DNA of 64,000 nucleotides, from the NCBI GenBank assembly GCA_026004195.1, contig BPIQ01000003.1, positions 248,001 to 312,000 of the forward strand. The letters run 5' to 3'. The stretch's first letter is position 1. Every line of letters begins with the position of its first letter. Positions 1-58,588 of the stretch are shown here, one piece after another. A model generated the notes under the pieces. It was not told the origin of the DNA. It worked only from the letters and a program-made list of their open reading frames with translations, and ran no database searches. Source of the stretch: Candidatus Binatia bacterium (GTDB taxonomy: Bacteria; Desulfobacterota; Binatia; HRBIN30; BPIQ01). Made by a program: the position numbers and the translations under genes.

Positions 1-2600
1 GGCGTCGTCCTGCGTGTCGTTCGCAATCGTGGGGCAGTTGTCGCACGCGTCACCCACCCCGTCACCGTCACCGTCCTGCTGGCCGGAGTTGGCCACCGTC
101 GGGCAGTTGTCGCAGACGTCCCCGTCGCCGTCGCCGTCGGCATCCGCCTGGTCGGGGTTCGCGAGGCCCGAGCAATTGTCGCAGGCGTTGCCGAAACCGT
201 CGTTGTCGTTGTCCTTCTGGTTGTTCGGCTGGTCCGGGCAGTTGTCGGCCACGTTCAGGACACCGTCACCGTCGCGGTCCGGGTCGCAGAGGTCTCCGAG
301 ACCGTCGGCGTCCTGGTCGGCCTGGTCGTCGTTTTCCGTGAAGGGACAGTTGTCGCAGATGTCACCTACGCCGTCCTGATCCGTGTCCGCCTGTCCCGGG
401 TCGGCGTCGGAGGGGCAGAGATCGCACACGTCACCGACACCGTCCGCATCTCCGTCGTCCTGACCGGGATTGTGGTTCGAGGGGCAGTTGTCGCAGGCGT
501 CGCCGACGAGATCGCCGTCGGCGTCCTCCTGGCTCGTATTGGCGACCGTGGGGCAGTTGTCGCAGGCGTCGCCGATGCCATCCGAGTCCCCGTCATCCTG
601 ACCGCTGTTGGAAACGGTCGGGCAGTTGTCGCAGAGATTCCCGATACCGTCACCGTCCGCGTCTCCCTGGTTCGGGTTGGGAATCTCGGGGCAGTTGTCC
701 GAGATGTTGGGTTTGCCGTCGCCGTCCCTGTCCGGGTCGCAAACGTTGCCCGTGCCGTCCCCGTCCTGGTCGGCCTGATCTTCGTTCGTGTCGTTCGGGC
801 AGTTGTCGCACACGTTGCCGAGGCTGTCGGTGTCGGAGTTGGCCTGATCGGTTCGGCTCGTCGGGACAGTTGTCGCACACGTCACCCACGCCGTCGCCGT
901 CGCTCGTCGGCCTGGTCGGGGTTCGCGACGGTCGGGCAATTGTCGCAGGCCGTGCCACCCCGTCGTTGTCGCCAGTCGGCTGACCGTTGTTCACGACGTT
1001 CGGGCAGTTGTCGCAAACGTCGCCGAAGTTGTCGCCGTCGGCATTGGCCTGGTCCGGGTTGGCCACGTTTACACAGTTGTCGCAAGCGTCGCCCAGGCCG
1101 TCGCCGTCGGCATCGCCTGGTCGTTGTTCGACGCGTTCGGGCAGTTGTCGCAGGCATCCCCACCCGTCGCATCCCGTCGGCCTGGCCGGGTTCGCTACCC
1201 CCGGGCAGTTGTCCACGTCCTCGCACGTGCCGTCGCCGTCCGCGTCGTTCGTGGCGTCGTTGGGGCACGTGTCGCAGATGTCTCCGATCCCGTCGCCGTC
1301 CGCGTCCGCCTGGTTGTTCGGAACCCCCGGGCAGTTGTCCACGTCCTCGCAAATGAAATCGCCGTCGGCGTCGTTCGTGGGATCGTTGGGACAGCTGTCG
1401 CAAACGTCACCCAGGCCGTCACCGTCCGCGTCCGCCTGGTCGGGGTTCGTAACGGTCGGGCAGTTGTCGCAAATGTTGCCGAGCCGTCGCCGTCGCTGTC
1501 CGCCTGGCCCCGCCACCGTCGGGCAGTTGTCGCAGGCGTCGCCCCGGCTGTCGCCGTCGGCGTTCGCCTGGTCGGGGTTGGCACGCGAGACGCAGTTGTC
1601 GCAAGCATTTCCTACGCCGTCGTTATCCGTGTCCGCCTGGTCGGCGTTCGGTTTGCTGGGACAGTTGTCGCAAGCATCTCCCACGCCGTCGCCGTCACCG
1701 TCGGCCTGGGTGGAATTCGCAACCCCCGGGCAGTTGTCCACGTTCTCGCAGACTCCGTCGCCGTCGGCGTCGTTCGTGGGTCGTTGTGGCACCCGTCGCA
1801 CTCGTCACCCAGGCCGTCGCCGTCCTGTCGGCTCTGGGTGGATTCGACACCCCGGGGCAGTTGTCCACGTCCTCGCAGACGCCGTCGCCGTCGGCGTCGT
1901 TCGTGGCGTCGTTCGGGCACGTGTCGCAAACGTCGCCGAGTCCGTCGCCGTCCGCGTCGGCCTGGTCCGGGTTCGAAGCGCTCGGGCAGTTGTCACAGAT
2001 GTTGCCGAGCCCGTCCCCGTCGCTGTCCGTCTGGGAGCCCGCCACCGTGGGACAGTTGTCGCAGGCGTCGCCCCGGCTGTCCCCGTCGGCGTTCGCCTGG
2101 TCGGGGTTGGCCACCGAGACGCAGTTGTCGCAGGCGTCGCCTACTCCGTCACCGTCACCGTCCGCCTGGTCGTTGTTGGCGTTGTTCGGGCAGTTGTCGC
2201 AGGCATCCCCGAAAGCGTCGCCGTCGGCGTTCGCCTGATCCGGGTTGGGCGTGGCGATGCAGTTGTCGCAGGCCGAGCCCACGCCGTCGCCGTCGCCGTC
2301 CATTTGCGTCGCGTTGAAGGTCGAAGGGCAGTTGTCGCAGTAGTCCCCGATCCCGTCCCCGTCGGAGTCCTTCGTCGCGCAGTCCGCGTTCGTCGTGCAC
2401 GCGTCGCCGGAGGGGCTTCCGCCGATGTTGCACGTCCCGTTCGTACAGACGTTCGCCTGCGTGGGACACTTGTCGACGAGGTCGTCGACGGTGTCGCCGT
2501 CCGTGTCGACGGCACGCGCGAGGCCGAACGTGCCGAGGACGATCAAAAACGTGCTCGTCCAGACGAGATGACGAAAGCTGCGGACTCCCTTGGCCACCAT
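1..2600 (-). CDS. Secreted thrombospondin type 3 repeat protein, frameshifted, C-terminus beyond left edge
   Basis: Probable surface or extracellular calcium-binding protein. Translation starts at 2600 with a signal peptide (core FLIVLGTFGLARA, about residues 17-30). It then runs directly into Asp-rich repeats of the form DxDGDGxGDxCDNCP joined by NPDQADAD-type linkers, roughly thirty in 2.5 kb. These are hallmarks of thrombospondin type 3 repeats, whose Asp residues bind calcium and whose Cys residues pair. The reading frame is clean from 2600 to about 1850 and again from about 380 to position 1, where it leaves the window open. Between these the repeat signature jumps frame several times (about 1780-1840, a paired shift near 1500, about 1110-1190, about 880-970). 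The shifts are one- or two-base indels relative to sister repeats. Either the repeat array was poorly assembled or the gene is decaying. No other domain is visible. Confidence 0.85.
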
Positions 2601-2739
2601 GATCTTCCCTCCTTACGATTCGAACTTCCCCCCGGAATTCCGAAAGCCGCGCGACGCGCGAGCGCTCCGAAACCCCGACTCTTCGTACGCCGATCGATTC
2701 ACTGCTTTCACACTGCACGCATTTCGATTCCCGGCGCAA

Positions 2740-2792
2740 TTAAGGATTTTCCCTAACAAAGCTCGTTCTTCGTTGTTAGGGTTTTCCCTAAC
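2740..2792 (-). promoter_or_regulatory. Two operator-like palindromes upstream of the thrombospondin-repeat gene
   Basis: A perfect 18-base palindrome, GTTAGGGTTTTCCCTAAC, lies at 2775-2792. A diverged copy, TTAAGGATTTTCCCTAAC, lies at 2740-2757, starting exactly 35 bases away. Both sit 140-190 bases upstream of the start codon at 2600, in a locally AT-richer patch. Half-site CCCTAAC occurs three times. The arrangement looks like two binding sites for a dimeric regulator. The cognate protein is not identifiable from the window. Confidence 0.5.
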
Positions 2793-2841
2793 GGTCACGT
2801 ACCCAATCTTGATCGAACGCGGCCCTGCTATCGGCGGGCAC

Positions 2842-3063
2842 GGACCCGACAGAGCGGGCCCCTCCGAAATGCACGGACGAAACGCCGCACCCCGATCCGG
2901 AGGGACGCGCCCCGTCGCGTCCGGGACGGGGACGAATCCGGCCATCGCGCGTCCGATCGTGGCCGACACCACGAACGAACACGGACCCGACAGAGCGGGT
3001 CCCTCCGAAATGCACGGACGAAACGCCGCACCGCGATCCGGAGGGACGCGCTCCGTCGCGTCC
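2842..3063. repeat. REP-like hairpin cluster A (two inverted pairs)
   Basis: Four copies of a short hairpin element, in two head-to-head pairs, with the pair itself duplicated 141 bases apart. Arms and loops: 2842-2861 (GGACCCG, loop ACAGAG, imperfect right arm CGGGCCC), 2903-2922 (GGACGCG, loop CCCCGT, CGCGTCC), 2983-3002 (GGACCCG, ACAGAG, CGGGTCC), 3044-3063 (GGACGCG, CTCCGT, CGCGTCC). Each has a CTCCG (or CGGAG) flank. The same element recurs near 23.1-23.5 kb and 35.8 kb. It is intergenic in every case. Confidence 0.75.
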
Positions 3064-3074
3064 CGAAGGGACGG

Positions 3075-3296
3075 TCAGCCCCGGCTCTTCGGGAGCATCC
3101 CGAAGTGTTCGAACGCGGCGCGAATGGCCTCGACCTTGTCCGGAGGGCAAGGATACGCGCGCCCCCCGGGCTTCCGGTTCCTCGCGGGCTTGACCTCGAG
3201 GCCGAACATTTCCTTGCAGTGAGCAATCCAGGCTGTGCTGGGCCAGAAGCCGTAGTGCTCCTTGACCCAGACCTGGATGTCTACGTACGTGGCCAC
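3075..3296 (-). CDS. Small conserved protein of unknown function, 73 aa
   Basis: A 73-residue basic protein beginning MATYVDIQVWVKEHYGF and ending HFGMLPKSRG. It has the look of a family of small stand-alone proteins I recall from many bacterial genomes, with a conserved W-x-A-H-x-K-E motif (WIAHCKE, about residues 23-29), a PCPPDK motif (about 49-54) and a terminal AFEHFGM. No function is known to me. It lies between the REP-like hairpins and exonuclease III on the opposite strand. Codon use matches the neighbours and the start is ATG, so I accept it as a real gene despite its size. Confidence 0.6.
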   Translation of the reverse strand: MATYVDIQVWVKEHYGFWPSTAWIAHCKEMFGLEVKPARNRKPGGRAYPCPPDKVEAIRAAFEHFGMLPKSRG

Positions 3297-3549
3297 CGTC
3301 GACCTCCTCGACGACGGGGCCCACGCGCGGCTCCGTGCTTCATCGTGCCGAACCTCCCTGATTCCATGGCACCCGCCCTATGGCACACTCGAACGCGAAA
3401 AGTCAATTCCGTTCCGACCGTCCGGAACGCCGCGGCTTTCCCGAAGCCGCCGGCCGCCCTGGCGAGGCGGCTTTTCGAGAAGGACCTGCGGCCCTTCGAC
3501 CGGCGGAGACGGAGCTGGTAAAAACGGCGGAGCGGCCGGGAGTCGTCCC

Positions 3550-4308
3550 ATGCAAACCCTGACGCTCGCTACCTGGAACGTGAACGGAATCCGGGCCCGA
3601 AAGAGCGAGGTTGCGGAGTTTCTCGCGACCGAACGCCCCGACGTCCTGTGTCTCCAGGAAATCAAGGCGCGGCCCGAGCAGGTGCCCGAAGAAATTCGCG
3701 AACCGCGAGAATACCGGGCCTTCTGGCACGGCGCGGGAGGCTACTCCGGCGTCGCGCTGCTCGTGCGGAAAGACGCCTTTCCCTCACGCCTCGAGGTCGT
3801 CGTGCCGTCTTTCGATTTCGAAACGCGGCTCCTGGAAGTCCGCGCAGGCGATCTTTTGTTCCTCTCCGCGTACGTGCCCAACGGCGGCAAGGACTTCGAG
3901 GCGAAGATGCGCTTTCTACGGACTCTCGAGGACTACGTGCGAAAGCTCCGCGCGGGCGGAAACCCCGTCGCGGTTTGCGGGGACCTGAACGTCACGCGCG
4001 AGGACCGCGACGTCCATCCCAAGGAGCGGAATCCGCAGCTTCTCGGCCAGCGACCGGAGGAACGAGCCGAGCTCGAAAAACTTCTCGCCGCGGGGCTCTC
4101 GGACGTGACGCGGACTTTCCACCCGGAGGACGAGCGGCTCTTCACCTGGTGGGCGCCCTGGCGACGGCACCGCGAGAGGAACATCGGCTGGCGGCTCGAT
4201 TACATCCTGCTCGACCCCTGGCTCGCGAGCCGCGCGCGCTCTTGCACCGTGCGGCGCGAGTTCGGTAGTAGCGACCACGCGCCCGTCGTGGCCACCCTGG
4301 AGGTGTGA
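3550..4308 (+). CDS. xthA: Exodeoxyribonuclease III
   Basis: AP endonuclease and 3'-5' exonuclease of base-excision repair, 252 aa, the normal length for the family. Active-site motifs are all visible: NVNGIR (residues 10-15), LCLQEIK with the metal-binding Glu37, GDLNV near residue 145, RLDYILL, and the C-terminal SSDHAPV with the catalytic Asp-His pair. ATG at 3550 is chosen because the family starts directly with the first beta strand (LATWNVNG); the longer upstream frame has no similarity. It ends seven bases before the next gene, so the two are probably co-transcribed. Confidence 0.93.
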   Translation: MQTLTLATWNVNGIRARKSEVAEFLATERPDVLCLQEIKARPEQVPEEIREPREYRAFWHGAGGYSGVALLVRKDAFPSRLEVVVPSFDFETRLLEVRAGDLLFLSAYVPNGGKDFEAKMRFLRTLEDYVRKLRAGGNPVAVCGDLNVTREDRDVHPKERNPQLLGQRPEERAELEKLLAAGLSDVTRTFHPEDERLFTWWAPWRRHRERNIGWRLDYILLDPWLASRARSCTVRREFGSSDHAPVVATLEV

Positions 4309-5154: not shown

Positions 5155-5562
5155 ATGAGGCGAGTGGTGCTGGTGGCATCGTTCCTGGTCTGCCTTTTCG
5201 TCGCCGACGGCCCGGCCGAGGAATCGAAGCCGGGCCCACCCGACCGCCCCTGTGCCGCCGACATCGAGAAGTTCTGCGCCTCCGAGAAAGGGAACCGCCG
5301 CCGTGTCGTGCTTTGCCTCGAGCAGCATCGGAAAGAGCTTTCCGAGCGCTGCAGGGCGTTCCTTGCCGGCGGAAGGCGAGGCCCCCGGGCGGGCGGCGGC
5401 CGGAGGCTCGTTTTCGCCTGCCGGGAGGAAGCGCAGAAGTTTTGCGGACAAAAGCGCGGGCGCGAGCTTTTCGACTGCCTCGGCGAGCATCGCGGCGAAC
5501 TCTCCGAGCGCTGCCGCACGGCGCTCGACCGGAGGGCGAAGGCCGGCGCGCCCCGCAACTAG
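5155..5562 (+). CDS. Secreted protein with two cysteine-rich (GLG1-type) repeats
   Basis: A 135-residue exported protein. ATG at 5155 gives a signal peptide (MRRVVLVASFLVCLFVADGPA). Two repeats follow, each with spaced cysteines: CAADIEKFC...VVLCLEQH...LSERCRAFL and CREEAQKFC...LFDCLGEH...LSERCRTAL. This matches the cysteine-rich repeat of Golgi apparatus protein 1/CFR (Pfam Cys_rich_FGFR), also found in many bacterial periplasmic proteins with unknown roles. A charged Arg/Lys tail ends the protein. Its stop overlaps the convergent histidine kinase stop by four bases. Confidence 0.75.
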   Translation: MRRVVLVASFLVCLFVADGPAEESKPGPPDRPCAADIEKFCASEKGNRRRVVLCLEQHRKELSERCRAFLAGGRRGPRAGGGRRLVFACREEAQKFCGQKRGRELFDCLGEHRGELSERCRTALDRRAKAGAPRN

Positions 5563-8243
5563 GCCCGCAGGGGGGGCCGGAGGTCTTCCTCGCCGATCCG
5601 TGACGGCAACGTCACCGTGAACGTCGTGCCCACGCCCTGCTCGCTCTCGACCTGGACGGAGCCCCCGAGAAGCTCGACGAGCCGCCGCACGATGTAGAGC
5701 CCGAGGCCCACGCCTCCGTATTTTCGTGTCGTCGAGCCGTCCACCTGCCGGAAGGGCTCGAAAATCGACCCGAGTTGTTCGCGAGGAATCCCGATCCCCG
5801 TATCCCGGACCCGGATATGGAAGTCCGCCCCGTCGCACCCCGCCGACACCCGGACCTCGCCCACCTCGGTGAATTTGAGCGCGTTGCCCACGAGGTTCTT
5901 CAGGATCACCTTCACCTTCGACGCATCCGTGCGGACGGGCAGGGGTTCCTCCGGAACTTCCCAGAGAAGTTCGACGGAAGGCTTTCTGTCTTTCTGCTCC
6001 CTCGCTTCTTCCTCCACCTCGGCCAGGATCGCCCGCAGATCGACTTGCTCGAACACGACCGGAAGCCTCCCGCTCTCGAGCCGACTCATGTCGAGCGTGG
6101 CCGTGATGAGCTCGTGGAGCTGTGCGGCGGCCCTCTCGATGCGCTCGAGGATGGTTTCCTGCTCTTGGGAAAGCTCCCCGAAGACCCCGTCTCGCAGGAG
6201 GTCCGCATAGCCCAGGATGACGTTGATCGGGGTCCGGAGCTCGTGCGACATCGTGGCCACGAACTCGGATTTGAGCCGGTTCGCGTCCTCGAGGTCCTCG
6301 ACGAGACGCGCGTTCTCGAAGGCGAGCGAAGCAATCTGGCTGATCCCGCGGGCGATCCGGAGTTCCTTCGAACCGAGCTCGGGCTCCCTCCCGCGCCAGG
6401 CGACGGTCTGGATGCCGACGATTTCTTCCCCTCGCCAGAGCGCCATGTAGAGCGCCGCCGTGATACCGTACCGAAGGGGAAGGGCAGGGGGGACCAGGTC
6501 CTGGGGTTCGCTCATCCGGGCGAACGCAACCTGGTTCTGCCGGAGTTCGGCAAGAAGCCCCGACACGAGGTTCCGGGGCACCTTGAGGACCCGGAGCGCT
6601 TCCCATTCCTCGGGCGAGTCGCCGAAGCCTGCCGTCGGCACGAAGACTTCCTCGGCCGCGTCCCAGACGAAGGTGTGGGCCGCGTCGCCGCCCAACGAGC
6701 GCGCGGCCGTCTCGCAGAGCGTCTCGAGGAGTTTCGGCCTGGCGAGCGTGGCAATGAGCGCCCGGCCCACCTCGGCCAGCTTGCCCGAGACTTCCGCCTC
6801 CTCGGCCTGCCGGCTGTAGAGGAAGATCGACTCGGCGGCTTGCGCGAGCTGCTTCGCAAGGCCGTCGCAAAGCTCGAGCTCCCCCGCCTCGAAAGCTCCG
6901 GTTCCTTCCCGGCACACGACGAAAAAGCCGAGCACGCGCTCGCGCCCGCGAAGCGGTGCGACGACCATGCGGCGGTGGCCGAGCATGCGCTCGAGAGTCC
7001 GGAGAGGCTCTTCGAGCCTGCAGCCGGGCTCGACGGCGGAAGCGCTTCTCGGGAGCTTCTCGACGGAAAGCTTCCCTACGCCCCCGAGCGCTTTTCGGAG
7101 CTCTTCCACCTTGCCCGCCTCGACTCCGAACGCCGAAGCGAGCTCGGGACTTTTTCCCTCGGCGCCCACGAGCACGGTGAGTGCCGCCGTACAGGGCACG
7201 GACCGAACGGCGGCTTCTTCCACGCTGCGAAGAGCCTCCTCGAGGTCGAGAGTTCCGCTCAGCGCTTGCGCGACTTCGAGGAGGGCCCGGGTTCTCTCCT
7301 CCGCCGTCTTCCGCTCCGTCACGTCCCGCGAGTTGACGACGACGCCGCCCCCGAGTTCCGGACCCAGAAGCGAGCCGATGCACTCGAGCGTCCGCCAGCT
7401 CCCGTCTTTGTGGAGAAACCTGGCCTCGATCGAATGAGGGACACCCGGGCTCGATCTCTCTACTTCGCGAGCGAACACCTCCACGACGCGTCCCACATCG
7501 TCCGGATGGACGAGCTCGAAGGCCTTTCTTCCGACGATCTCCTCGGGCCTGTAACCCAGGACGCGCTCGTGCGAGGGACTTGCGTACGCGCACGTGCCGT
7601 CGAGCCGCAGGACGGCAACCAGGTCGAGAGCGTTCTCGTTCAAAAGCCGGAAGTACTGTTCGCTCCGGCGCAGCGCAGCGAGCGCTTCGTCTCGCTCCCT
7701 TTCGCGCAGAAGAGAAGCGACGAGCTGACGCGCCGTCGAGCGGGCGATGAAAACGCAGACGGCAAAAAAGACGCCGAGGCCCAGGGCGGGATACCCGAGC
7801 ACGGCGTCGAAATGCCCGTCGACGAAATACACGTTGGCGAGGAGGGCGAGCACTGCCGCGGCCGTGGCTCCCGCCTGGTATCCCGCACCCCAGGGAAACA
7901 GGGTGGCCGAACCGGCGAGCAGGATGGTCGCGAGCAGCGGCATCGTGACGAGATCGCCCCGGAGCACGTTCGACGCCGTCGCACTCGCGCAAAGAAAAGC
8001 AGCCCCGGCGAGAGCCAGGGGGGCCGCCCTTCGCGGAAACCGGGTAAGAGCCCAGAGGAGAGAAAAGCTGAAAACGAGCTGAACTCCCTTGAGCACGAGA
8101 AGCGCCGGCGCGTCCTCCGTATCGAGCGCCACCTCGAAAAAGCCGAAAAGCACGATGGCGAAAAGGAGAACCCAAATGGCCACCCGTAACCGCGCGGCTT
8201 GCAGTTCGAGAACGCGCTCTCTGGCCCAACCCGTGGCTGTCAT
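5559..8243 (-). CDS. Membrane-bound PAS/GAF sensor histidine kinase (orphan)
   Basis: About 894 aa. The N-terminus has several hydrophobic helices (about residues 20-175), followed by a PAS domain (about 195-305, RSEQYFRLLNENALDLVAVL), two GAF-like regions, a HisKA dimerisation helix with MSHELRTP (phosphoacceptor His about 667) and a HATPase_c domain (NLVGNALKF, DTGIGIP, GVGLGLYIV). This is a hybrid-free kinase: no receiver domain is attached and no response regulator is adjacent, so its partner is elsewhere. Start at 8243 is preferred because the longer frame to 8591 would run through tRNA-Val, and because a G-rich stretch lies just before this ATG. Confidence 0.9.
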   Translation of the reverse strand: MTATGWARERVLELQAARLRVAIWVLLFAIVLFGFFEVALDTEDAPALLVLKGVQLVFSFSLLWALTRFPRRAAPLALAGAAFLCASATASNVLRGDLVTMPLLATILLAGSATLFPWGAGYQAGATAAAVLALLANVYFVDGHFDAVLGYPALGLGVFFAVCVFIARSTARQLVASLLRERERDEALAALRRSEQYFRLLNENALDLVAVLRLDGTCAYASPSHERVLGYRPEEIVGRKAFELVHPDDVGRVVEVFAREVERSSPGVPHSIEARFLHKDGSWRTLECIGSLLGPELGGGVVVNSRDVTERKTAEERTRALLEVAQALSGTLDLEEALRSVEEAAVRSVPCTAALTVLVGAEGKSPELASAFGVEAGKVEELRKALGGVGKLSVEKLPRSASAVEPGCRLEEPLRTLERMLGHRRMVVAPLRGRERVLGFFVVCREGTGAFEAGELELCDGLAKQLAQAAESIFLYSRQAEEAEVSGKLAEVGRALIATLARPKLLETLCETAARSLGGDAAHTFVWDAAEEVFVPTAGFGDSPEEWEALRVLKVPRNLVSGLLAELRQNQVAFARMSEPQDLVPPALPLRYGITAALYMALWRGEEIVGIQTVAWRGREPELGSKELRIARGISQIASLAFENARLVEDLEDANRLKSEFVATMSHELRTPINVILGYADLLRDGVFGELSQEQETILERIERAAAQLHELITATLDMSRLESGRLPVVFEQVDLRAILAEVEEEAREQKDRKPSVELLWEVPEEPLPVRTDASKVKVILKNLVGNALKFTEVGEVRVSAGCDGADFHIRVRDTGIGIPREQLGSIFEPFRQVDGSTTRKYGGVGLGLYIVRRLVELLGGSVQVESEQGVGTTFTVTLPSRIGEEDLRPPLRA

Positions 8244-8554
8244 GCAGGAACCCCCCAGTCCTCCAAGCAAGCGAGGTGCCATGCTGGAAAGGCCGAAAGG
8301 ACCGGCACCCGCCCTGAGAGAGCGCTCCGTCGGGTCGAAAAACTCGACGTAGCAACGCGAAGAACGGATGGAGGAGGCATTCGGGAAGCGCCCCGAGATT
8401 CGTCTTGCCGCTACCCGACGATACCCCGGGGTCGCACCCACGTCTTCCCCCGAGCCGCCTGTGGCAAGTGCAATCTGGAAAGGAAAGTCCAGGGGGAAAG
8501 GACGCCGGCCCGGGAAATTCGGCTCGGCGCGCCGGGGAACAGAGGAGGAAAGAG
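8244..8554. other. Non-coding leader between histidine kinase and tRNA-Val
   Basis: About 310 bases with no supported gene. An open frame crosses it on the minus strand, but its peptide has no domain and it would also read through the tRNA. It probably holds the promoter of the histidine kinase. I see no convincing -35/-10 pair. Confidence 0.4.
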
Positions 8555-8628
8555 TGGTCGCACGTGGACTCGAACCACGGGCCTCCTGCATGTGAGGCAG
8601 GCGCTCTGACCAGCTGAGCTATGCGACC
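8555..8628 (-). tRNA. tRNA-Val (anticodon CAC)
   Basis: Read on the minus strand it folds as a complete cloverleaf: acceptor GGTCGCA/TGCGACC, D stem GCTC/GAGC, anticodon stem CCTGC/GCAGG with loop CTCACAT (anticodon CAC), and T arm CGTGG-TTCGAGT-CCACG. The discriminator base is A and the CCA end is not encoded. Confidence 0.95.
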
Positions 8629-9347: not shown

Positions 9348-12300
9348 GTGAAGCTTTCGCGCGCGCTGCTTCCTCTTCGCCTGCTTTTTTTCGCAGCCGT
9401 CTTTTTTCCTCTTGTCGTCCCCCTCCGAGACGGCCGGGCCGAAGTTCCGAGCACTCTCCAGGGACGGTGCCTCCGTTCCCTCTACCGAGATTTCCTCCGA
9501 TCCGCCGTCCGGGAGCGCCGCGAGTTCCGCCGGTGCACGCGCGAGGCGATCACGGGCAAGATCGAGACGCCGGCACAACTCCAGGAGTGCCTCGGAGCGG
9601 ACGAAAAGGGCCGCATGGCCCGCCTTCTCGAGAAATCTCTCGAGCGCGACCGGTTGCGATGTCGCCCGTTGCGATGGACCCTCTTCCCTCCGGGGGCGCC
9701 TCCTCTCGAAGTCGGGGGAGAACGGCCCGCCTTCGGCTACACGAACGCCTGGAACGTCGTCGAGGCGGGACGCGGCGCCGTTCTCGGGCTCCTTCGTGAA
9801 ATCCTGGGAGACGACCCGGCGGGCGCTTTCGACGCTTCGGGCGCGGGGAGCTGCCAGAGAAAAACCCTTTCCACGGCGGCGAGCCTTCTCCTGACCGAAA
9901 TTCGCACTTTCCGTGCTTGCGTGGTGAAGGGCCTTCGGACGAAGACCCTCGACTCCCGGGAAGCCCTCGCGGCCTGTCTCGACGCCGTCTCGCAGGACGA
10001 GAAGGGAACCATCGCAAGGCGGGCGAGCGAGCTCGGACGCGAGATCGATCGACACTGCGAGGGAGCGGACCTCGCCACGGTCTTTCCCGGTGCCTGCGCC
10101 GGAGCTCCGGATTTTTCTGCGTGCGCGAGAGAGCGCGCGACCTGTCAGGTCTGCCGGGCCGTGGCCAGGGCCGCGGACGTCGAGCCCGACTGCGACGCTT
10201 TCGACAACGGAGTCGCCGACGGAAGCTGTGACGGCCGCTATCCGGAGACCTTCGACACGATGAGCCGGCTTCCCGCAACCGGAGTTCGCTACTACGTCGG
10301 GGGGCCGTGTGCGAGCAACTCGAACGACGGGAAGTCCCCCACCTGCGACGGCTCCGGCGCGGGTCCCTGGGCGGACTTTCTCCCGCTCCAGGCCGTTTCT
10401 CTCTCGCCGGGCGACACCGTGCTCGTGCGCGCCGGAGTCTACGACCTCTCCGCGATGGGGCTCGCGACGCTCGAACTCTCTTCGAGCGGCACGCCGACCG
10501 AGCCCATCCGCCTTTCCGCCTTTCCGGGGGAGACCCCGGTCCTCGACGGCGGAAAAAGCCTGGATGACCGGGACCCCGTCGTGCGCCTCACGGGGGCCTA
10601 CACGATCTTCGAGGGGTTCGAGGTCCGCGGGTGCGGCAAGATCTGCGTCGCCCTGTACGAAGGCGCGGACCACGTGCTTTTCCGAGACAACCGGGTCGTG
10701 GGCAGTGTCGAGGACGGACTCAAGCCGCTTCACGCCAAAAATATCCTGATCCTCGGGAACCGGTTCACGGGCTTCGCTCACGAGGCCATCGACGTCTGGG
10801 GGTCCCACGACGTGTGGATCGTGGGGAACGAATTTTTCGGGAACGACACGAGCTTCTCGCCGAGCTCGACGACCTGGGCCAAGGCGGGCTCGAGCCACGT
10901 CCTCTACGTCGAGAACGACTTCCACGACCTGCTCGTGGCAGGCCACGCGCTCCTTCTGGGCGGGTGCTGCTGGATGAACTGGGACCAGGAGGGAGGCCTC
11001 CTCCAGGACGAAGACGGCCAGTGGACACCGCAGCCCGTGGCGCGACAGGTGCGGGCGCTGCGCAACACGTTCACGGCGGTCGAGATCGACTTCTCGAAGG
11101 GCCAGCTCCTGCCGTCGGTCATCGGCGCCCAGGGGTGCCGGCACTGCGAAGCCTCCGGCAACGTCCTCGACGGGACGTGGGATGCCTTTTCGGCGAAGCC
11201 CTCGGCTTCGGACACCCAGCCCTGCTTCGCCGGCGATCCGTGCCAGGGGGCGGAGTGCACGTGCTCGTGGAGCGTTGCGCCCGACGACGTGACCTTCACG
11301 GGCAACACGGCGAGAAACGTCGTGCCGACGGACCCCGCCGGAACCGGAACTTCCAGGAGCCGATTTTTCTCCCTGTGGGACGGCTACGGCGGGGCACAAC
11401 TCGCCATCGACGGGAACACGTACTGTGCGGACGGACCCGAAGAGTTCGTCGCGGGAAGCTGGAGCGGGGGCTTCGCGGGCTGGCAGGCTCTCGGCTTCGA
11501 TCTCCGGTCTTCCTTTTCGAGCTGCGCCGCTCCCCCGGGCCAGCTCGCGGACTTCCGTCTCGTGCTCCAGGGCGAATACGTACCCTCCGAGGACGCGGCG
11601 CAACTCGAGTCTCTCTGCGTGACGAACCGTGCCTGGGCCGCGAACAGCCTCTGGCTTCTCTGCAGCAACGCGGCGCTCGGAGACGAGAACTCCACCGAGC
11701 GCGAGCTCATCGAAGCCTTCATCGCGACGGGCGACGAAGAAGAAGACGAGGCGGCCCTGGGCCAACGGCTCGACACTTCGATCCAGCTCGCTTCCACTCG
11801 CGGCTTCGACCCGAACACGACGGATTTCGTCCTCCTCAACTGCGAAGAGCCGGTACACCCGCGGAAATGGGGCGCCATCCTGAACCAGCAGTACCCGGAC
11901 CTCGAAGCCGCCTACTACGCGGCCCTGGCCCGGCGGATCCGCGTCGCCCGGAGCAGGCTCCCGAACGCGCTCCTGGCTCTCGGTCCCACGATTCGCGCGG
12001 ATCCCGACGGGGTTCTCGACGAGCAACTCGAAGTGCGGATGACGGGCTACCGGAACGCGGGTGCGGCCGGTGTCTACGACGAGCTCGATTGCCTCGAGCC
12101 CCGAGTCTACCTCGAGGAAGACACCTCGGGCGGGTATGCTACGACACGCGCCATGACGACGCTCGCCCTCGAGCTCTCCTCGACCCTCACGAAAACGACC
12201 GGCGAGACGCTTCCCCTCTGCGTGCTCTCGAGTGTCCGGCTCGGCGGGAACTCGAGCGTGGCGCCCGCGGCTCAGGCCCTCGCGCAGATCGATGCCGTGC

Positions 12301-23085: not shown

Positions 23086-23102
23086 AAGCGAACGGACCCC
23101 CC

Positions 23103-23460
23103 GGACGCGACGGAGCGCGTCCCTCCGCGCGGGTCCATGTTCATGCGTGGCACGTCCGTCCCGCGCCCCGGACGCGACGGAGCGCGTCCCTCCGACCCGT
23201 GCGCGCGTACCCCGTGCGCCTCCGCGCGGCGCTTCGAATCCGCAATCGGAGGGCCACGCTCTGTCGTGGCCGTGTTCAGGTGCGGTCCGGCCGTCCATGA
23301 CCGTCACCACGCCCCCCGCCCCCCGGGCGCGACGGAGCGCGTCCCTCCGGGTGGCCGCGTCCCTCCCCCGGACGCGACGGAGCGCGTCCCTCCGCACGGG
23401 TCCATGTTCATGCGTGGCACGTCCGTCCCGCCCCCGGACGCGACGGAGCGCGTCCCTCCG
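23103..23460. repeat. REP-like hairpin cluster B (six copies)
   Basis: Six hairpins between the DUF11 gene and the acyl-CoA synthetase, with arms GGACGCG/CGCGTCC and loop ACGGAG at 23103-23122, 23170-23189, 23370-23389 and 23436-23455. A G-U wobble variant (GGGCGCG) lies at 23325-23344, and a reversed variant with arms GGCCACG/CGTGGCC and loop CTCTGT at 23252-23271. CTCCG (or CGGAG) flanks each. A longer stretch around 23130-23163 is repeated near 23398-23430. Frames through this block yield peptides like DATERVPP that I treat as artefacts. Confidence 0.8.
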
Positions 23461-35700: not shown

Positions 35701-35773
35701 GCCGACGAGGATGGCACATCCCGGCCCCGTTGCCTAGGACGGATGCGCCACGCATGGCCACGGCCAGGGGGAG

Positions 35774-35888
35774 GGACGCGCTCCGTCGCGTCCGGGGCGG
35801 GGCGGGGATACGGTCGTTCGTGTTCGGCCACGCACGACGGTACCGAACGTGGCCACGGCCACCCGGAGGGACGCGCTCCGTCGCGTCC
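35774..35888. repeat. REP-like hairpin cluster C (two copies)
   Basis: Two copies of the same dispersed hairpin at 35774-35793 and 35869-35888 (GGACGCG, loop CTCCGT, CGCGTCC) between divergent genes. A degenerate relative (GGCCACG ... CGTGGCC) sits between them near 35826-35855. The same element occurs near 2.9 kb and 23.1-23.5 kb. Confidence 0.75.
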
Positions 35889-35949
35889 CGGGGGATGGGA
35901 GAATCTGGCGGCAAAAGTACCCGCGGGCTAAAGTTCCGCACCGAGCCCC

Positions 35950-57034: not shown

Positions 57035-58588
57035 TCAGTCTTTCTCCGCACGTTCTCTCGCAGCCCCGCGCAACCCCAGCGTCCGCATCATCCGGGAGAA
57101 GTTCGAGCGCGACATGCCGAGAAGCCGTGCGGCGGCCGCCTGGTTTCCCCCGCTCGCCTCGAGCGCCTCGAGGAGGCGCCGTTTTTTCTCGTCGCGAATG
57201 GTTTCCCCGAAGCTCGTTCGCCTGTCGGGAGAAGAGACGAGTTCGGGGAGGTGCTCGGGTCCGATCGTGGGGTCGCGCGAGAGCAGGACGGCCCGCTCCA
57301 CGACGTTGCGCAGCTCGCGGACGTTCCCGGGCCAACTCCACTGCCGCAGAAGCCGGACGGCGTCGGGGCGGAAGCCCCGGACCTCGCGGCCGTGCCTCCG
57401 GGCCGCTTCGTCGAGAAAGTGGGTGGCGAGCACGAGGATGTCGTCCCCCCGCGCCCGGAGCGGCGGCACGCGAATTTCCACGGCAGCGAGCCGGTAGAAA
57501 AGGTCTTCGCGGAAACGCCCGCGCACGACTTCTTCCCGAAGTTCGCGGTTGGTGGCGGCGACGAGCCGCACGTCGACACGCCTCGGCTTGCGGGCGCCCA
57601 CGCGCTGGACTTCGCCTTCCTGCAGCACCCGCAAGAGCTTCGCCTGGATGGCCAGGGGAAGGTCTCCCACTTCGTCGAGAAAAAGCGTGCCGCCGTCGGC
57701 AAGCTCGAATTTTCCCGGCCGCGATTCGACGGCACCGGTGAAGGCTCCGCGCTCGTGGCCGAAAAGCTCGCTCTCGGCGAGCTCGCCCGGGATGGCCGGG
57801 CAGTTGACGCTCACGAGCGGCCCCGCGGCCCGCCGGCCGAGCTCGTGGATCGCGCGCGCGACGAGCTCCTTTCCCGTGCCCGTCTCGCCCGTCACGAGAA
57901 CGGAAACGTCCGTCGGGGCCACGCGCTCGACGAGGGAGAGAACCTTGGCGAGCGCGGGGCTCCTCCCTACGATCCCGACCCGCTCGACGAACGCGAACAC
58001 CTGCTCGCGCACCCCTTCCTCCCGCTCCCGCCAGCGCCTCTCCCAGTCCCGCAGGCGCTCCGACACCTGCTCTTTTTCCTCGCGGTAGCGCCGCGCCGCC
58101 CAGGCCAGCGCGAGATGTCCCGCGAGAAGCTCGACACCGCGCCTGAGCCGCTCGTCCCTCGGGCGCTCCGCGAGCACCACGCGACCGAGCTCTTCGCCCC
58201 AGACCGAAAGCGGGAGGACTTCCTTTCCCTCCCCTGCCCCCTCTCCGTCCCCGAGCTCGGCCGGGAAGCTCGCCGCGTTGCCACCGCGGAAAAAGCGGAG
58301 TCGGTAGCGGCCTTTCTCGGGCACGTAGACCGCCGCACCTCCGGTAACCCCGGCTTCTTCGAGGCCCGCGGTGAATCCCTCGGCAAGCCGGCTCCAGTCC
58401 GCTTCGGCTCCTCTCGTCACTTCGAAAAACCGCGCCAGGGCGCGCGCGAGCGGATCCGCTGCGGACGTGCGGCGCGAGACCGGCCCGGGTCGGAAGCGGA
58501 GGAAAAACGCCGCTCCAGCGAGCCAGACCTCGCCGAGTGCATCGCCGGCCCAGGAAGAAAACCATCCCCCGATCTCGACGCTCGTCAT
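57035..58588 (-). CDS. Sigma-54-dependent transcriptional activator
   Basis: 517 aa. An N-terminal hydrophobic segment (about 20-40) and a GAF-like region precede the AAA+ core: Walker A GETGTGKE, the sigma-54-contacting GAFTGA, Walker B GGTLFLDEVGDLP, and the C-terminal Fis-type HTH NQAAAARLLGMSRSNFSRMMRTLGLR. No receiver domain, so it may respond to a small ligand. It is divergent from the phosphonate-type operon with a 273-base spacer, so it may regulate it. Confidence 0.92.
   Translation of the reverse strand: MTSVEIGGWFSSWAGDALGEVWLAGAAFFLRFRPGPVSRRTSAADPLARALARFFEVTRGAEADWSRLAEGFTAGLEEAGVTGGAAVYVPEKGRYRLRFFRGGNAASFPAELGDGEGAGEGKEVLPLSVWGEELGRVVLAERPRDERLRRGVELLAGHLALAWAARRYREEKEQVSERLRDWERRWREREEGVREQVFAFVERVGIVGRSPALAKVLSLVERVAPTDVSVLVTGETGTGKELVARAIHELGRRAAGPLVSVNCPAIPGELAESELFGHERGAFTGAVESRPGKFELADGGTLFLDEVGDLPLAIQAKLLRVLQEGEVQRVGARKPRRVDVRLVAATNRELREEVVRGRFREDLFYRLAAVEIRVPPLRARGDDILVLATHFLDEAARRHGREVRGFRPDAVRLLRQWSWPGNVRELRNVVERAVLLSRDPTIGPEHLPELVSSPDRRTSFGETIRDEKKRRLLEALEASGGNQAAAARLLGMSRSNFSRMMRTLGLRGAARERAEKD

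Follow-up and report, generated by a model that had tools for sequence, protein, structure and literature searches.

We found that the intergenic region ahead of a gene whose product is a large secreted repeat protein contains two closely spaced copies of one palindrome. This pair is real, local and probably regulatory, and it has neither a regulon nor demonstrable conservation. The gene encodes thrombospondin-type-3 repeats (TSP3), and we see about an even chance that the two palindromes are a private operator, or an upstream activating pair, for a dimeric regulator of this gene.

Sequence and setting of the palindrome pair

The window is the whole 64,000-nucleotide stretch of DNA that was analysed, and positions given here are positions in it unless another genome is named. 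Copy 2 of the palindrome is 18 bp long with a 7-N4-7 design in which both arms are fully symmetric. Copy 1 is symmetric at 4 of the 7 arm positions when counted by eye in the register of copy 2. Direct reading of the window gave a start-to-start distance of 35 bp (Table 1), confirming the description in the first-pass annotation of a perfect palindrome with a diverged second copy 35 bases away. That annotation had also called the spacing helical-like, which is not what we found. The DNA helix has 10.5 bp per turn, so that 35 bp corresponds to approximately 3.3 turns rather than a whole number; the two copies are out of phase and therefore lie on different faces of the helix. The sequence that follows copy 1 is unlike the sequence that follows copy 2, and the likeness between the copies is confined to the palindrome. 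Since the likeness goes no further, a simple duplication in tandem does not account for the pair. Similarity that ends in this way is expected if a site, and not a duplicated segment, is what has been kept.

Table 1. Positions of the two palindrome copies, the downstream gene start and a similar site in another genome.
Feature	Positions	Strand	Remarks
Copy 2, perfect palindrome GTTAGGG-TTTT-CCCTAAC, GTTAGGGTTTTCCCTAAC	2775-2792	.	Distal to the TSP3 gene; read directly
Copy 1, TTAAGGATTTTCCCTAAC	2740-2757	.	3 mismatches to copy 2; read directly
Spacer between the copies, 17 bp	2758-2774	.	Read directly
First open frame of the secreted TSP3-repeat gene, 301 aa	1695-2600	minus	ATG at 2600
Single palindrome TTAGGGTAATCCCTAA in genome G007	L003 1501-1516		Upstream of PD40 gene

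The gap that holds the pair is bounded by the TSP3 gene on one side and by a small frame on the minus strand (3075-3296) on the other. The pair is located 140-192 bp before the minus-strand start codon of the latter, so its earlier placement upstream of a thrombospondin gene was correct. The start of the TSP3 gene has an AGGAGG ribosome site and a signal-peptide-like N-terminus, both judged by eye. GC content in 60-base steps was 0.47-0.48 across 2700-2819, compared with 0.65-0.75 over 2820-3119 and 0.57-0.70 over 2400-2669. This dip to 47-48% around the pair, as in promoter regions, was counted in favor of an operator.

The TSP3 gene (minus strand, 1-2600) runs past the start of the window to about G000:C3:246735 and is broken by frame changes into three main open frames of 301, 383 and 734 aa. 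Among the matches listed, several relatives from the same order have single TSP3 frames of more than 2000 aa. The frame splits may come from errors of sequencing or assembly within the repeats, or the gene may be decaying. On the other side of the gap, the 73-aa frame at 3075-3296 (minus) belongs to no Pfam or NCBIfam family, and neither the viral contigs nor 14 other genomes from the order yielded a relative. None of the six neighboring proteins scanned is a DNA-binding regulator, and the nearest signaling gene to the pair is a sensor kinase at 5562-8591. No sigma-70-like promoter was found in 2400-3600. A terminator scan found two candidates versus 1.1 in shuffles with neither at the palindromes, and the pair was rejected as a terminator on this basis.

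Chance, copy number and local repeats

With as many as 3 mismatches allowed, the window has two matches to the 18-mer, where 100 dinucleotide shuffles predict 0.01. At this stringency the 18-mer also occurs only twice in the whole 3,632,936-bp genome, both times at this locus, and the backwards control occurs 0 times. The prospect of further copies upstream of other genes was not realized, and with no further genomic copy within 3 mismatches there is no sign of a regulon. A looser arm pattern, TTAGGG-N4-CCCTAA with 2 mismatches, gave 9 genomic places, two of which are this pair, versus 76 for the backwards control; the loose pattern is therefore rarer, not commoner, than the control. The remaining seven places do not have the TTTT middle, none was convincing as a further copy, and this search likewise revealed no regulon. 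At the four other TSP3 places in the genome (L014, L016, L019 and L024) no match with 5 or fewer mismatches was found in a stretch of approximately 3 kb each.

A lone palindrome of this kind is common, since perfect palindromes with 7-bp arms and loops of 3-8 numbered 108 in the window versus a mean of 66.6 in 40 shuffles. The unusual part is the paired second copy. This bears on the explanation that the pair has no present function and is either a chance palindrome with a partial copy or the relic of a mobile or repeated element, which we regard as possible yet distinctly the weaker bet. Some palindrome with a second copy of 3 or fewer mismatches within 100 bp was present in 2 of 40 block-shuffled windows, and such a pair taken as a feature class is thus roughly a 5% event per window, which is compatible with chance. 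Against this, the chance that the sole other genomic copy falls 35 bp away is near 5e-5 by our arithmetic on the genome count (approximately 200 in 3.63 million), and this is not plausibly chance.

Repeat turnover does occur in the same gap, where a dispersed repeat family begins at 2839, and this agrees with a relic. The units of that family are, by contrast, unlike the palindrome, and a distant search of 2700-2830 found no match to a plasmid record. The dispersed repeat is GC-rich, is found at 2839-2929 and 2980-3070, and has 158 genomic matches, many of them clustered. It is made of two hairpin-forming halves, GGACCCG...CGGGTCC and GGACGCG...CGCGTCC, and is a REP-like element that differs from the palindrome pair. 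Its palindromic half recurs at approximately 23100-23450 and 35770-35890. The script that detected the pair reported, as the other palindrome pairs of the window, the GGACGCG...CGCGTCC unit at approximately 23.1-23.45 and 35.8 kb and a TSP3 repeat at approximately 1.9 kb.

Occurrence in other genomes

Of the genomes that the search returned, the nearest are related to this one at the level of the order, with no relative from the same genus or family among them. Among the TSP3 matches listed from the 14 other genomes of the order, one gene start (L032) is clearly comparable, with a protein that begins with the same signal-plus-TSP3 layout, and the motif is absent upstream of it. This absence is consistent with a pair that arose by chance or as a relic. 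We read stretches from eight relatives, and in the upstream part covered every match had at least 7 mismatches. These eight count as one test of conservation, because four of them (L037, L077, L078 and L080) had less than 200 bp upstream and three (L079, L081 and L082) begin with other sequences. The first-pass annotation had held that a lack of further copies and of conservation in relatives would refute its reading; this is the outcome we obtained, as far as a comparison at the level of the order and at a single gene start allows.

Tandem pairs of this type were found in 2 of 395 genomes of the phylum, this genome included, versus 4 for the backwards control and are therefore at or below the control level. 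The pair in the other genome (L048) is inside an open reading frame. The genome_contigs collection contained 16 stretches with such pairs, counted with no control run; approximately 100 would be expected with equal bases, and on this rough estimate the 16 do not exceed chance. One of them (L062) shares its core with L048. In viral_contigs there were three such stretches, also counted with no control run, and one of these (L076) is alike in its flanks, CCCTAACAAA and CCCTAACGGT-AC. It was set aside because by eye it reads as inside a short frame of approximately 57 aa that starts near 10204; a listing of frames of at least 60 aa shows another frame there.

We also considered a control element shared by secreted-protein genes in the order, with the site TTAGGGTAATCCCTAATTG in genome G007 as its second member. 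Among the 58 genomes searched, this one included, an exact TTAGGG-N4-CCCTAA occurred elsewhere only in G007. The G007 site precedes, by approximately 215 bp, a frame that has PD40 beta-propeller repeats and whose start looks signal-like by eye. It has the same orientation as copy 1, and both have TAATTG at the end nearest the gene. An extended pattern led to two further sites, and one of them (L083) is approximately 345 bp upstream of another frame with a signal-like start. L083 is, however, also inside a doubtful 113-aa frame, the second further site (L086) runs into the end of an open frame, and the G007 palindrome is a single copy with no direct repeat nearby. Moreover, the backwards control pattern matched 6 of the 58 genomes, and the extended pattern matched 4 of 98 genomes, this one included, versus 5 of 98 for the control. 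With counts at the control level we place little weight on a wider element and consider a shared one very improbable.

Candidate roles in expression of the TSP3 gene

The pair might act as RNA, with two stem-loops in the 5' leader of the TSP3 mRNA that would affect leader stability or translation, but we think this improbable. The proposed stem-loops are GUUAGGG-AAAA-CCCUAAC and GUUAGGGA-AAA-UCCUUAAU, which can also pair together into one nested structure. On the minus strand the hairpin of copy 1 has 8 pairs, including two G-U pairs, and a 3-nt loop, and it extends one base further out. Both copies fold on this sense strand, with -10.1 kcal/mol for copy 2 and -5.8 kcal/mol for copy 1, whereas on the plus strand copy 2 folds well (-10.6 kcal/mol) and copy 1 poorly (-2.0 kcal/mol). 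In copy 1, two pairs are not Watson-Crick: they are G-U on the sense strand and A-C on the plus strand. Such an asymmetry would be expected of a role as RNA, but one that depends on two G-U pairs is weak evidence. A 61-nt sense piece folded better than all 200 shuffles (z -3.44), with a nested form that joins both copies, but the corresponding plus-strand piece gave z -3.13, as a palindrome would. The best structure of the 142-nt leader contains both separate hairpins, although its z of -1.56 is modest in that 12 of 200 shuffles fold as well. The pair may in addition lie outside the TSP3 transcript. Rfam gave three matches in 2400-3600, none of them at the palindromes, and since all scored under the gathering threshold of their family, a known structured RNA leader was rejected. 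Also conceivable, but highly unlikely, is a one-gene switch: the tandem leader hairpins would exchange with the single nested hairpin, and a ligand or protein would in this way control expression of the TSP3 protein.

We then compared the pair, as DNA, with known binding sites. The DtxR/IdeR box has a 19-bp consensus of the TTAGGTTAGSCTAACCTAA type with TTAGG...CCTAA half-sites. The palindrome has these half-sites too but with a different spacing between them, and the best match to the 19-bp consensus in 2701-2830 was 10 of 19, leading us to reject a DtxR/IdeR box. The palindrome, in six spellings, does not occur in the open-licence library searched, and no paper there combines TSP3, bacteria, a promoter and a palindrome. 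A search of this library with the half-site led to a paper on plasmid RA3.

The closest layout is that of GcsR, a TyrR-like enhancer-binding protein with sites at the gcvH2 promoter of Pseudomonas aeruginosa (PMC4894688). Each GcsR site measures 18 bp and has a 4-nt middle flanked by 7-bp palindromic arms; the sites stand in tandem upstream of the gene, and GcsR works with an RpoN (sigma-54) promoter (PMC4894688). The pair described here is similar in having 18-bp 7-N4-7 sites repeated in tandem upstream of a gene. It differs in that there are two sites rather than the three reported at gcvH2, in sequence (TGTAACG-N4-CGTTCCG for GcsR), and in that no good candidate for a sigma-54 promoter was seen (PMC4894688 for GcsR). 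Our scan for such promoters was a simple count over 260 bp against the generally known consensus, not a full matrix; the best candidate had 8 of 12 specified bases, and none of the top 8 upstream candidates had both the GG and the GC of GG-N10-GC. Since no sigma-54-type promoter stood out, we did not assign the pair to the GcsR-type family. Sigma54_activat matched 14 of 14 control genomes in the profile search, archaea included, and so only strong matches were counted. The genome has 11 such domains above 220 bits, and regulators of this type therefore exist in it. One strong domain (242.7 bits) is within the same window at 57473-57973 on the minus strand.

In an operator pair, a putative dimeric regulator would bind the palindromes, with two dimers occupying the two sites, and would thereby alter transcription of its presumed target, the TSP3 gene on the minus strand with its start at 2600. 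An operator of this sort is recognized by at least two nearby copies of the same palindrome ahead of a gene, as is the case here. The genomic uniqueness of the pair, together with the ribosome site and signal-like N-terminus downstream, also argues for an operator. The suggestion in the first-pass annotation that the pair is typical of dimeric regulators binding cooperatively is thus partly upheld: position, symmetry, repetition and the GcsR layout fit it. Counted against it are the lack of further genomic copies and of a regulon, the absence of the motif at L032, the control-level frequency of pairs in the phylum, the out-of-phase spacing, and the 4 of 7 symmetry of copy 1, along with the negative scans for a sigma-70-like promoter, for GG-N10-GC, and for a DNA-binding regulator among the neighbors. 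Cooperative binding at the pair is only a guess.

Nothing found shows that the pair belongs to a wider or new system. The palindromes resemble an ordinary pair of control sites that serves the TSP3 gene alone, and they open no new kind of system. If they are an operator pair, they would provide a short bait for finding the regulator of a large secreted TSP3-repeat protein from a lineage for which few close relatives are available.
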